Assembly (NCBI GenBank): GCA_013374015.1
Contig: BLLL01000006.1
Location: 24,464 to 88,463 of the forward strand
Reading direction: 5' to 3'
DNA from: Candidatus Desulfovibrio kirbyi
Lineage (GTDB): Bacteria > Desulfobacterota > Desulfovibrionia > Desulfovibrionales > Desulfovibrionaceae
Length of the DNA: 64,000 nt
Shown here: one piece after another, positions 4,117 to 32,253 of the stretch
Layout of the letters: each line of letters opens with the position of its first letter
Numbering within the stretch: the stretch's first letter is position 1
The notes under the pieces: generated by a model
Database searches by the model: none
The model's input: the letters and a program-made list of their open reading frames with translations, nothing else
What the model was told of the DNA's origin: nothing
Translations under genes and position numbers: made by a program

Positions 4117-4931
4117 AAAATACGGTCACAACGTTTCAGGAAGCAAAGGGACGCGAAAAACTTGTCATGCTCACGGCCTACGACTACAGCACGGCGCGCA
4201 TTATGGACGAGTGCGGCGTCAACGCCCTGCTTGTGGGGGACAGCCTCGGCAATGTCATGCTGGGACATCCAAATACCCTTTCCGTCACTCTGGACGACAT
4301 GCTGCGCGCCTGCGCGAGCGTTGCCCGGGCCGCAAACAGCGCCCTCGTCGTCTGCGACATGCCCTTTATGAGCTGCCATGTCAGCAAACAACAAACCCTG
4401 CGCAATGCAGGCCGCCTGCTGGCCGAAGGCGGCGCGCACGCTGTAAAAATTGAGGGCAGGTACTGCCATGAAGTGCGGGCGCTCACCAGAACCGGCATTC
4501 CGGTGATGGGGCATCTGGGTTTGACGCCGCAGTCTGTACACACCCTTGGCGGCTACAAGGTGCAGGGCAAAACCCTTGCTGCGGCCCAAAAACTGCTTGA
4601 CGACGCTCGCGCTCTGCAGGATTCGGGCGCGTTTTCCCTGTTGCTGGAATGTGTTCCGGCGGCGCTGGCGGCGCGCGTTACCCGAGCACTTGCCGTCCCG
4701 ACCATCGGCATCGGCGCCGGCCTGCAGTGTGACGGACAGGTTCTCGTGTGGCAGGATATGTGCGGCATAAGCCAATCTCCGGCAAAATTTGTTAAAAAAT
4801 TCGGAGAAGTCGGCCTTGCCCTGCGCTCCGCGTTCACAGCCTATGCGGAAGACACGCGCAACGGCCTTTTCCCCGCCGGCGAGCACTGCTACGCCACGAC
4901 TGACGACACGCTGTTTGACGCGCTGGTCTGA
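4113..4931 (+). CDS. panB: 3-methyl-2-oxobutanoate hydroxymethyltransferase
   Basis: PanB is the first committed enzyme of pantothenate and coenzyme A synthesis; it adds a hydroxymethyl group from methylene-tetrahydrofolate to 2-oxoisovalerate. The 272-residue protein shows the family signatures MLTAYDYSTA near the start, LVGDSLGNVMLG, VKIEG, MGHLGLTPQS and PTIGIGAG in order, with a normal length for a (beta/alpha)8 barrel of this family. It overlaps speB by four bases. Its last 43 bases overlap the 3' end of the convergent acyltransferase gene. No panC is adjacent in the window. Confidence 0.95.
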   Translation: MKNTVTTFQEAKGREKLVMLTAYDYSTARIMDECGVNALLVGDSLGNVMLGHPNTLSVTLDDMLRACASVARAANSALVVCDMPFMSCHVSKQQTLRNAGRLLAEGGAHAVKIEGRYCHEVRALTRTGIPVMGHLGLTPQSVHTLGGYKVQGKTLAAAQKLLDDARALQDSGAFSLLLECVPAALAARVTRALAVPTIGIGAGLQCDGQVLVWQDMCGISQSPAKFVKKFGEVGLALRSAFTAYAEDTRNGLFPAGEHCYATTDDTLFDALV

Positions 4932-29104: not shown

Positions 29105-30169
29105 ATGGCAAAAACACGCGCTCTGCGCCTGGGTGGGCTGACTGTCGGTGGCGGCGCGCCTGTTGTGGTGCAGAGCATGACAAATACCGACACGCGAAAT
29201 GTGCCCGCAACGCTTGCCCAGATCAGGCAGCTTGAGGCGCTGGGCTGTGAAGCCGTGCGTCTGGCTGTGCCTGACAGTGACGCTGCCGGATCATTGGCGG
29301 CAATCCGCGCCGAGACGGCGCTGCCCTTGATCGCGGACATACATTTTAACTACCGTCTTGCCCTTGCCGCGCTGGAAGCCGGGGTGGACGGATTGCGAAT
29401 CAATCCGGGAAATATCGCTTCAAAAGCGCATGTCAACAAAATTGTGGACGCGGCAAAGGCGCACGGGGCGGTTATCCGAGTGGGCGTCAATTCCGGTTCT
29501 CTTGAAAAATCACTCTTGCGCCAATACGGTGGCGTTTGCCCTGAAGCACTTGTGCGCAGCGCCCTGCAACATGTTCGCTTATTGGAAAAACGCGGTTTTT
29601 ATGATATCAAAGTTTCGCTCAAGTCCTCCTCTGTTCAGGATACCCTAGCTTCCTACCGATTGCTGGCGGATGCCTGCGAGTATCCCTTGCATATCGGCAT
29701 AACAGAGGCCGGCGGACTTGTGCGCGGCGCTGTCAAGTCCGCAGTGGGCATAGGCATATTGCTGCACGAAGGTATTGGCGACACACTGCGGGTTTCGCTG
29801 ACCGCTGATCCTGCTGAAGAGATAAAAGTCGCCTGGGAAATTTTACGCGCGCTCGGGCTACGTTGCCGAGGGCCTGAAATTATTTCTTGCCCCACATGCG
29901 GACGGACGGAAATTGATCTTTTTGCGTTGCTGCGCGCTGTTGAGGAAACGCTTGCCCACTCCACAGCACAAATCAAGGTGGCGGTGATGGGCTGTGTGGT
30001 CAACGGGCCTGGCGAAGCGCGTGAAGCGGATATTGGAGTGGCCGGCGGACGGGACATGGGCAGTATCTTTTGCAAGGGGCGGGTAGTGCGCACCGTCAAA
30101 GGACAAGATGCTCTGCTTGCGGCCTTTGTGCGGGAGCTGCAAGCCTTGCTCAGCGACCATGCGCCCTGA
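29105..30169 (+). CDS. ispG: 4-hydroxy-3-methylbut-2-enyl-diphosphate synthase
   Basis: IspG performs the [4Fe-4S]-dependent seventh step of the MEP isoprenoid pathway. In 354 residues the TIM barrel opens with VVVQSMTNTDTRN and VRLAVPD, and the Fe-S domain has SCPTCGRTEID near residue 260 and GCVVNGPGEAREADIG near 296, which give the three cysteine ligands and the glutamate. ATG 29105 fits the family; the open frame starts earlier inside the lon end. It is the last gene of the leuS-ispG run. Confidence 0.96.
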   Translation: MAKTRALRLGGLTVGGGAPVVVQSMTNTDTRNVPATLAQIRQLEALGCEAVRLAVPDSDAAGSLAAIRAETALPLIADIHFNYRLALAALEAGVDGLRINPGNIASKAHVNKIVDAAKAHGAVIRVGVNSGSLEKSLLRQYGGVCPEALVRSALQHVRLLEKRGFYDIKVSLKSSSVQDTLASYRLLADACEYPLHIGITEAGGLVRGAVKSAVGIGILLHEGIGDTLRVSLTADPAEEIKVAWEILRALGLRCRGPEIISCPTCGRTEIDLFALLRAVEETLAHSTAQIKVAVMGCVVNGPGEAREADIGVAGGRDMGSIFCKGRVVRTVKGQDALLAAFVRELQALLSDHAP

Positions 30170-30225
30170 CGCAAACACCACTTTGGTTCACCATAAAAAA
30201 TTTGCCAAGCCGAAAATATTCTTCT

Positions 30226-30264
30226 GCCTGATTCGTCTACATAGACAGATGGACGCCATCAGGC
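30226..30264 (+). promoter_or_regulatory. inverted repeat before the ECF module
   Basis: GCCTGAT at 30226-30232 pairs with ATCAGGC at 30258-30264, and an inner GTCTA/TAGAC pair adds a second small hairpin. There is no T-run, so this is more likely an operator or leader structure than a terminator. It lies between ispG and the His-rich membrane protein. Confidence 0.3.
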
Positions 30265-30306
30265 GCCCAAATCGATTTTGAATCACAAAACAGACAGGAA
30301 ATATGT

Positions 30307-30708
30307 ATGCATCGTCATCACAGAAAAATTATCGCCTTGATTCTTCTTTGCATCCCCGTCCTTGCTCTTGCGGTCATGCTGCTCTGGAATACGGCGCTCG
30401 CAGGCGCATTGGGCGTTCCCGCCATAAGTTTTTGGCAGGCATTGGGCATATTGCTGCTGGCCAGGATACTCTTTGGCGGTTTCAAAGGACTCCTAGCATT
30501 GGGCTTGCATGGAAGCGAAAAACACTTTGCGCTACGCAACCGCTGGCACAGCATGATGAACCCGGAGGAAAAAGAAAACTTCCTGCAACGGGGTTTCAGC
30601 TTTCACCATCATAGGCATCATGCAGATACGCACGGTCAGGGTGGAGACAAATCCGGCCCGTGTGAAAAATGCGCATGCCCCAGACACTATTGCGAACGTA
30701 TTCATTAA
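30307..30708 (+). CDS. membrane protein with His/Cys-rich tail, linked to ECF sigma
   Basis: The 133-residue protein has two hydrophobic helices (IIALILLCIPVLALAVMLL and ALGILLLARILFGGF), followed by a soluble tail that is extremely rich in histidine (FSFHHHRHHADTHG) and has four cysteines (CEKCACPRHYC). The N-terminus is also His-rich. Such a tail would bind Zn, Cu, Ni or Co. It is encoded 25 bases upstream of an ECF sigma factor, so it may be its metal-sensing anti-sigma factor. I do not recognise a named family. An AGGAAAT site lies just before the ATG at 30307. Confidence 0.7.
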   Translation: MHRHHRKIIALILLCIPVLALAVMLLWNTALAGALGVPAISFWQALGILLLARILFGGFKGLLALGLHGSEKHFALRNRWHSMMNPEEKENFLQRGFSFHHHRHHADTHGQGGDKSGPCEKCACPRHYCERIH

Positions 30709-30733
30709 GACGCTACACACATCAGGATTGACG

Positions 30734-31303
30734 ATGGCCGCATCATCACGTCTTATACAGGCCGTTCAGTCCTGCCGGGCGCGCCTGCTCGGCTTCATCA
30801 GCAACCGGGTCAAAGTCAGGGATGACGCAGAAGACATCATGCAGGACATTGTATTACGATTGTTCCAGACAGACGTGGCATCCGATCCGGTGGACGATGC
30901 CGTTGCCTGGCTTTTCCGGGCGGCGCGTAACGCAATCACTGACGGATGGCGGAAAAAACGCGAGGAGCAGTTGCCTGCCGCTGATGCCGATGCTCTGGAT
31001 TTCACCCTGGCTTCCACTCCTGAACTTGTGGAAATCACGGAAGTGCTGTGTGCCAGGACAGGCACTGCGGAAGATACATACTTGGCAGGAATCTTCTGGC
31101 AGGAATTGCGGATTGCTTTAGACGCATTGCCGGATACTCAACGGGAAATTTTTGTGAAGACGGAACTGGAAAATTGTTCATACAAACAACTAGCTGAAGA
31201 AATGGACATACCCATTGCTACATTGCTTTCCAAAAAGCACAAGGCGGTATTGCGTCTGCGAGAACGATTACGGAAAGTTTATGATGCAATTATCAATTCT
31301 TAA
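30734..31303 (+). CDS. ECF-type sigma factor
   Basis: The 189-residue protein has sigma region 2 (DAEDIMQDIVLRLFQ and AWLFRAARNAITDGWRKKR) and region 4 (ALDALPDTQREIFVKTELENC followed by the helix-turn-helix YKQLAEEMDIPIATLLSKKHKAVLRLRERL). There is no region 3, as expected for an ECF factor. ATG 30734 has AGG seven bases upstream. Together with the preceding membrane protein it looks like a sigma/anti-sigma pair. The target regulon cannot be read; ECF-like -35/-10 boxes upstream are not obvious. Confidence 0.88.
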   Translation: MAASSRLIQAVQSCRARLLGFISNRVKVRDDAEDIMQDIVLRLFQTDVASDPVDDAVAWLFRAARNAITDGWRKKREEQLPAADADALDFTLASTPELVEITEVLCARTGTAEDTYLAGIFWQELRIALDALPDTQREIFVKTELENCSYKQLAEEMDIPIATLLSKKHKAVLRLRERLRKVYDAIINS

Positions 31304-31578
31304 AAACTGGACTATATTTGGAAGGGTAACAGAATTGATATTCAATTCATCTCCGTTCACAGTCATAGCTTTTATCTAGCTTGTTGTCCGGCGTTCCATG
31401 CGCGATGGCATCCGTACGTGGACATGTTGCTGATTGCGATTCCGGTGTAAAGGGGGATACGCGCAAAATTTTTTGCCCTTTTCGGGCATGCATTTCCGGT
31501 TCCCTTTCAGGCGACAGAGAATTGCATTGACGGCGTTTGCGTCTTGCGCCGACTGCCTGCAGATGCTATTTATACCGA

Positions 31579-32253
31579 ATGCCAAACATTGATTTTACCC
31601 AGGCCATCCATACGCTGTCCATAGAGCTTGTACCCGCGCTTCTGGGCATCATACTGCACGAGGTGGCGCACGGCTATGTGGCCTGGCGTTGCGGCGACCC
31701 TACGGCCGCAGCCCTTGGACGCCTGACCCTCAACCCCTTGCCGCATATTGACCCCGCTGGCCTGCTGGTTTTCGGGCTTACCAGTTTGTCCGGCGCCTTT
31801 GTTTTTGGCTGGGCAAAGCCGGTACCTGTAAACACCGGCTATTTTCGCAATCCCATGAAAAGCATGATGCTTGTAGCACTGGCAGGCCCTGTGACAAATT
31901 TTTTGCTGGCGCTGTTCTTTGGCGCAAGCCTGTTTTGCGCGCTGAAATTTTTTCCCTACGCGCAATGGAACAACAACACGGCGTATGAATTTGCCTTGTC
32001 CGTATTGCAGGCCGGCGTGGTGATAAATTTTGGTCTGGGCTGGCTCAACCTTGTGCCCATACCGCCGCTGGACGGCAGCAAGATACTTTCGTATTTTCTG
32101 CCCGGTGGTGTGGGACTGCAGTATATGCGTTTGGAACGTTACGGTTTTGTTATTCTTTTGTTGTTGCTGTTTTCCGGGTTGCTGGGCAAGACGCTTGGCC
32201 CACTGGTGTTCGGCAGTATGCGCGGGCTGTATTCACTGCTCGGCTTGCAGTGA
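31579..32253 (+). CDS. M50-family site-2-type membrane protease
   Basis: The 224-residue protein is a polytopic membrane zinc protease with the HEVAHG motif near residue 21 and the second metal site NLVPIPPLDG near 165. It is of the short FtsM50/YwhC-like class, without PDZ domain. Substrate is unknown; in this class a link to sigma/anti-sigma cleavage has been shown only for some members, and its nearness to the ECF pair may be by chance. The gene is followed 27 bases later by trpS. The frame extends upstream of ATG 31579, but the protein start fits the family. Confidence 0.87.
   Translation: MPNIDFTQAIHTLSIELVPALLGIILHEVAHGYVAWRCGDPTAAALGRLTLNPLPHIDPAGLLVFGLTSLSGAFVFGWAKPVPVNTGYFRNPMKSMMLVALAGPVTNFLLALFFGASLFCALKFFPYAQWNNNTAYEFALSVLQAGVVINFGLGWLNLVPIPPLDGSKILSYFLPGGVGLQYMRLERYGFVILLLLLFSGLLGKTLGPLVFGSMRGLYSLLGLQ

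Follow-up and report, generated by a model that had tools for sequence, protein, structure and literature searches.

The window, a 64,000-nucleotide stretch of the Candidatus Desulfovibrio kirbyi genome (assembly GCA_013374015.1, contig BLLL01000006.1, positions 24,464 to 88,463 of the forward strand), contains two adjacent genes on the forward strand. The coordinates of this locus are given as window positions, and the genome itself (1.61 Mb, G000) was compared with that of a sister species (G618). The first gene (30307..30708), defined from its open reading frame and by homologue comparison, encodes a membrane hairpin protein of 133 amino acids, a putative anti-sigma factor that we refer to as the partner. 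The second gene (30734..31303) encodes an ECF sigma factor of 189 amino acids with regions 2 and 4. In the list of open reading frames the sigma gene began at 30620, inside the partner gene. The ATG at 30734 is better supported, because it opens a conserved N-terminus, MAASxRL (MAASSRL in the window and MAASPRL in G618), and is preceded by a Shine-Dalgarno-like AGGA; it is therefore probably the true start. The pair is preceded by ispG, then lon and radC, and the sigma gene is followed by an open reading frame with an HEVAHG motif, trpS, ruvX, and mltG. The HEVAHG reading frame (31537-32253, site-2-protease-like) lies directly 3' of the sigma gene; since it is not beside the pair in G618, its neighborhood may be incidental.

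The sigma factor matched Sigma70_r2 (PF04542) and r4_2 (PF08281) above the Pfam cut-offs and no further domain, and it thus has regions 2 and 4 without regions 1 or 3, the composition of group IV (ECF) sigma factors. The superfamily model TIGR02937 scored 71.6 bits against a cut-off of 42.9 and was the only NCBIfam model whose cut-off was passed. The best subfamily models for the sigma proteins were PRK12513, SigZ, and Sig70_bacteroi1, yet all of them fell far below their cut-offs.

The partner has two hydrophobic helices. Membrane helix 1 (approximately residues 8-28, 30328..30390) was delimited by the AlphaFold model, the alignment, and hydropathy with flanking charge, and ends with the invariant W27-N28; membrane helix 2 (approximately residues 42-58, 30430..30480) was placed by the alignment and the model and carries the conserved Q44, G47, R53, and G57. 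Across the family, W27, N28, Q44, G47, and G57 of the hairpin are invariant or nearly so. Two short C-terminal helices (residues 71-83 and 86-96, 30517..30594) follow; the model and the charge pattern place them probably in the cytosol, and they are the candidate sigma-binding part of the protein. Most family members share a C-terminal motif, W-x2/3-M-[TS]-P-E-E-R-x2-F. The AlphaFold model, of moderate confidence (mean pLDDT 70, pTM 0.31), has helices at residues 3-35, 42-56, 71-83, and 86-96 and a disordered, low-confidence tail. The mean net charge in the family is +3.2 before helix 1, -0.3 in the loop, and +3.8 after helix 2; with positive charge outside both helices and a loop near zero, both ends of the partner and its tail should be cytosolic.

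No Pfam or NCBIfam model matched the partner above its cut-off, none of 59 family members had a Pfam match, and a PDB search with the family profile returned nothing below an E value of 0.6. Class I anti-sigma domains (ASDI) are recognized by profiles and consist of a three-helix bundle plus a fourth helix; the partner family does not fit this description, and the model of the partner shows only two short cytosolic helices as against four. The zinc-binding anti-sigma (ZAS) pattern, Hx3Cx2C across helices 2 and 3, is also absent. The initial annotation had described a protein with two membrane helices and a four-cysteine tail, assignable to no recognized anti-sigma class and encoded directly upstream of an ECF sigma factor, and these features were all borne out, the last by Pfam regions 2 and 4. 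In a subset of loci (L005-L008, L014-L020, and L194-L203), the C-terminus Y-D-E-W/F-W-K-E-x-G-E-K-S/A-F replaces M-T-P-E-E-R, and in most of these loci the sigma factor also differs somewhat and the promoter resembles GCAATAAAAC...CGTCTTA. They possibly represent a second sigma-binding type.

A conserved promoter-like element lies upstream of the pair. Between the window and G618, whose partners are 73% identical, the upstream DNA is conserved in a block around AAAATATT...CGTCT; at the matching position, Enterobacterales have GCAATATT-N13-CGTCTACCTCAT and Bacteroidales have AAAATATTTT...TTTGTCT. The window element comprises a -35 hexamer AATATT on the forward strand (30215..30220; extended form GAAAATATT, 30212-30220), conserved in G618, Enterobacterales, and other phyla, and, 13 nucleotides after it, a conserved -10 element CGTCTAC (30234..30240) with no mismatch to the consensus. 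Transcription is predicted to start at about 30247. The AAC that is usual in the -35 element of ECF promoters (PMC8103513) is absent from AATATT. A loose ECF motif of the GAAC/GTC type was also tried and was rejected, as it is absent upstream of the pair. Searches around the pair for sigma-70 promoters and intrinsic terminators, and a search of 29800-31700 against Rfam, found none.

The motif was derived by aligning Enterobacterales upstream DNA. All 13 letters of AATATT-N13-CGTCTAC were present in 43 of 96 upstream regions, compared with approximately 0.05% of shuffled regions. A weight matrix seeded from the Enterobacterales consensus and refined on sites from outside that order detected 144 sites in the loci, mostly upstream of the pair, versus none in a reversed-sequence control of 2.05 Mb; its test on Enterobacterales (42/43) is, unlike this control, not fully independent of the seed. 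In G000 the exact pattern occurs once in 1.61 Mb, at the pair (30215-30240). The scan of this genome gave no site with one mismatch, sites with two mismatches stayed at background, and no further target of the promoter was detected beyond the pair. The exact site was likewise single in 17 of the 18 genomes or records that have one, while a looser pattern gave few sites in each of 21 Bacteroidota genomes, not far above control. An ECF sigma factor is expected to have its promoter upstream of its own operon, and on sequence grounds only this holds here, with AATATT-N13-CGTCT found across phyla. The conservation of the motif upstream of the pair and its single exact occurrence in most genomes support autoregulation and a tiny regulon. 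Thus, positive autoregulation by the sigma factor is well supported at the level of the promoter, and the regulon predicted from these scans is very small.

The initial annotation had drawn attention to an inverted repeat just before the pair (GCCTGAT, 30226-30232, and ATCAGGC, 30258-30264; 30226..30264 overall, with a gap of 25 nucleotides). As a functional element it did not hold up: the arms are only 7 nucleotides long, G618 has not retained the right one, and RNA folding reached a z-score of only -1.7. The repeat overlaps the conserved ECF-type promoter and is probably incidental.

The pairing of the two genes was then followed in other genomes, where the proposal of a sigma-partner pair would have been undermined by homologues of the membrane protein occurring mostly away from sigma factors. 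A scan of GTDB species contigs yielded at least 445 partner relatives, which occur in Bacteroidota, Enterobacterales, Desulfobacterota-type genomes, Acidobacteriota, Verrucomicrobiota, and SAR324. A set of 96 distinct loci was assembled from 80 retained GTDB loci together with Desulfovibrio-type genomes and Pantoea plasmids, and a same-strand ECF sigma gene adjoins the partner in all 96. In a draw of 396 whole Bacteroidota genomes, 57 partner genes were found in 56 genomes (approximately 14%), each adjoined by a sigma gene (57/57). A Pseudomonadota draw gave 13 paired genes out of 15, the two exceptions being the most distant matches, and both of two additional loci from the same genus as the window were paired. 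With each locus counted once, 165 of 167 homologues directly adjoin an ECF sigma gene on the same strand. The refuting pattern was thus not seen, and this near-obligate pairing makes a functional sigma-partner unit hard to doubt. The distance matrices of partner and sigma factor are correlated (r = 0.62 for 99 nonredundant pairs; permutation maximum, 0.11), and on a tree of the sigma factors the gene order changes a single time (support, 98/94; mean after shuffling, 21), indicating that the pair moves as a unit. In Enterobacterales, a 4-nucleotide overlap of the two genes, consistent with translational coupling, is frequent. Taken together with the promoter, the comparison indicates that the pair and its putatively self-activating promoter recur in at least five phyla.

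Within the window's genus the distribution is patchy, with 4 convincing pairs in 79 genomes; a fifth match, in G634, is weak and yielded neither a partner nor a sigma reading frame. The G000 genome is small and nearly complete in a genus of mostly 2 to 4 Mb, and it keeps the pair, which most of the genus lacks. Separately, two loci (L265 and L266) encode distant hairpin relatives (LWN..PDV....I...Q) with no adjoining sigma gene, and the hairpin motif may therefore exist outside the sigma-partner system.

We consider it reasonably likely that the pair constitutes a self-activating stress switch, in which an autoregulated ECF sigma factor is held by a membrane-hairpin anti-sigma factor. The sigma factor would transcribe its own two-gene operon from AATATT-N13-CGTCTAC. 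The partner, a hairpin whose two termini would both be cytosolic, would most likely use its C-terminal helix pair (W..M[TS]PEERe.F...) to hold the sigma factor and would let go of it upon stress. The anti-sigma reading draws on the obligate linkage, the translational coupling seen in many pairs, cytosolic helices that match the CnrY pair in size, and the self-activation. Sigma binding, inhibition as the direction of control, topology, metal binding, and the signal are inferred. In a coevolution analysis of partner and sigma factor (mutual information with APC), the top scores joined partner residues 83-93 to the sigma2 region and coincided with the predicted helices at 71-83 and 86-96; at the available depth (Neff of approximately 70 to 93), within-cluster shuffles gave similar maxima, and the scores, which did not exceed this stricter null, were set aside as evidence.

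The small regulon also accommodates a different role for the partner, namely that it is the output of the system rather than its inhibitor. The sigma factor would then be activated in some other way and would serve to produce a small membrane protein with a protective function, which in this case has a metal-buffering tail; given the single promoter, the regulon would consist of the partner alone. The sole promoter detectable in G000 does drive the pair itself, as in most genomes tested, and the extra targets linked to the pair elsewhere are likewise small His/Cys-rich, Fe-S, or membrane proteins. However, the near-absolute one-to-one linkage, the conserved cytosolic helix motif, and the frequent 4-nucleotide overlap are what would be expected of a stoichiometric regulator, whereas an effector would be expected to occur alone or in multiple copies more often. 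We regard a purely effector role as somewhat unlikely, although the partner may be both anti-sigma factor and effector. The obligate pairing and the membrane location fit equally well with a membrane receptor needed for sigma activity, acting in a pro-sigma mode like that of FecR with FecI instead of as a pure inhibitor. The periplasmic part, however, has only about 10 to 14 residues and no sensor domain, and the neighborhood Pfam counts revealed no regularly linked outer-membrane receptor gene; we regard this mode as very unlikely.

An ECF sigma factor with a membrane partner is a known kind of system, and the anti-sigma reading was set against described pairs. CnrH-CnrY, a class II anti-sigma system of the Cupriavidus metal response, likewise combines an ECF sigma factor with a small regulator that is membrane bound and encoded alongside it. 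In CnrY the sigma-binding helices are N-terminal, ahead of one membrane helix, whereas the candidate helices of the partner come after the membrane hairpin. The two systems are alike in a possible metal signal and in that a pair of cytosolic helices likely contacts the sigma factor, CnrY being described as binding its sigma factor through two helices (PMC7406223). No sequence similarity between the partner and CnrY was found, and no CnrX-like periplasmic sensor was seen. The class I anti-sigma factors, ZAS proteins included (RseA, RsiW, ChrR, and RsrA), are likewise encoded beside an ECF sigma factor, co-transcribed, and autoregulated, and some of them bind zinc through Cys and His. The partner differs from them in having neither the four-helix ASD nor the Hx3Cx2C signature by which ZAS proteins are defined (PMC7406223), and in carrying its cysteine cluster, CEKCACPRHYC, in a disordered C-terminal tail. 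Pfam, NCBIfam, and PDB searches showed no similarity of the partner to known anti-sigma domains. EcfO-Reo of Bacteroides/Phocaeicola is likewise an ECF sigma/anti-sigma pair in Bacteroidota; Reo, however, is described as extending from the cytoplasm to the cell surface (PMC13114119), whereas members of the partner family have approximately 100 to 150 amino acids and two helices.

The His/Cys-rich tail of the window partner (residues 97-133, 30595..30705) has the sequence FSFHHHRHHADTHGQGGDKSGPCEKCACPRHYCERIH. It includes the string FSFHHHRHHADTHG and a four-cysteine (Cys4) cluster, PCEKCACPRHYC, formed by residues 119, 122, 124, and 129 (codons 30661-30693). The four cysteines are kept in G618; the His-rich stretch is not the same in the two species. 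Ka/Ks between the window and G618 was approximately 0.16 for the tail and 0.09 for the Cys4 motif, indicating that the Cys4 clusters of the two species are under purifying selection. The Cys4/His tail is limited to these two species, and the rest of the family lacks it. Among 71 members that bear the C-terminal motif, at least one tail cysteine was found in 57, compared with about 20 expected, and in 32 of the 71 a cysteine lies exactly 10 residues after the motif. Metal ligands are not conserved across members as they would be in a family of metal-binding regulators, since outside the two species there is usually one cysteine. The His/Cys tail is thus a lineage-specific elaboration of a region in which relatives often have a thiol.

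Additional evidence on the tail came from genes linked to the pair in Desulfovibrio-type genomes. In G618, a second copy of the promoter lies downstream of the sigma gene, ahead of a free 72-amino-acid His/Cys-rich protein, MFHHHHRHHCHAHG...APCAKCACPRHYCRTRHE (locus L105, 5908-6126, reverse complement). The C-terminus of this protein consists of PCAKCACPRHYC, which is nearly the same as the Cys cluster of the window partner, followed by a short extension. In G000 the Cys motif occurs in the partner only, with no free-standing copy. In a third Desulfovibrio-type genome (G616), the promoter precedes an 85-amino-acid Cys-rich reading frame that leads the operon (locus L106; promoter and reading frame at 4558-4878, reverse complement), and the gene before this reading frame encodes a heavy-metal P1B-type ATPase, above the curated cut-off. 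Free His/Cys-rich targets of this kind are limited to a few Desulfovibrio-type genomes.

Alternatively, the tail could be low-complexity sequence that drifts and has no role with metals, in which case only the hairpin and the C-terminal helices would matter. Its variation across the family, its absence from most members, and the dissimilar His-rich stretches of the window species and G618 would fit such drift, but the retention of Cys4 between sister species with the Ka/Ks values given above, and the recurrence of the Cys motif in a separate G618 protein behind a matching promoter, do not, and we regard drift as unlikely. The tail in the window species and G618 probably binds metal. The very likely metal-binding region of the initial annotation was thus upheld in part: a metal or thiol role is supported in this lineage by the Cys4 kept in G618, the free His/Cys-rich protein with a matching Cys motif and the same promoter, and the G616 promoter before a Cys-rich reading frame adjoining a heavy-metal ATPase gene, but not as a family trait, Cys4 being absent elsewhere. 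Release of the sigma factor through metal or thiol modification of the tail would be consistent with the ligands and with the linked His/Cys-rich targets. In Desulfovibrionaceae, the His/Cys tail would most likely sense either a thiophilic metal or a change in thiol redox state; one conserved cytosolic cysteine may do the sensing in many other members.

Different genes are linked to the pair in other lineages. In five Bacteroidales loci (L026, L037, L100, L101, and L169; several of the genomes are metagenome assembled), the promoter stands before a small 2[4Fe-4S] ferredoxin gene beside the pair, and some of these ferredoxins have a membrane anchor, which suggests a redox or Fe-S link. In others, the protein encoded behind the promoter is TolC, a Na+/H+ exchanger, an outer-membrane barrel, an Hsp20 with a His-rich start, or a membrane protein of 84 to 98 amino acids. 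In Enterobacter, the pair sits 5' of DsbD-like and DsbA-like genes, which resemble the Scs copper-tolerance operon. A rhodanese-domain protein is encoded next to the pair in three Desulfovibrionaceae. Neighborhood Pfam counts across the loci showed no family-wide partner function. With targets as varied as ferredoxins, TolC, Hsp20, and small membrane proteins, a single metal signal for the whole family is unlikely. A further group of Bacteroidota loci (L066, L160-L164, L168, L170, L177, and L184) encodes a second protein, of 65 to 96 amino acids, behind a promoter copy beside the pair; these proteins usually have membrane helices, and several share DKIR.M(D/N)(E/D)E(E/Q/D)Y, which resembles the M-T-P-E-E-R helix of the partner.

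Literature searches that combined ECF factors with Scs, with His-rich proteins, or with small membrane proteins revealed nothing on the pair. Neither the partner family nor its promoter or distribution is described in the literature covered; the current ECF catalogue, which our search did not cover, may list the sigma group with no mechanism assigned. Mechanistic insight of any kind is lacking for 102 of 157 ECF groups (PMC8103513). In a survey of Bacteroidota, a class I anti-sigma factor was found near only 6% of ECF sigma factors, and the survey suggested that other anti-sigma classes may dominate in this phylum (PMC7406223). With its presence in approximately 14% of the sampled Bacteroidota genomes and its near-constant adjacency to an ECF gene, the partner family offers a specific candidate for a class of this kind. 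We tentatively propose, at slightly below even confidence, an undescribed class of anti-sigma factors in which a membrane hairpin would hold the ECF sigma factor through its C-terminal helix pair (W..M[TS]PEERe.F..W.xRC). If this is true, the class would be conserved together with its promoter in at least five phyla and would form a switch whose regulon is often limited to the pair and, linked to it, one or two genes for small proteins of the His/Cys, Fe-S, or membrane kind. The defined promoter makes the idea easy to test, and the combination of a tight promoter and a one-target regulon could give a useful orthogonal switch.
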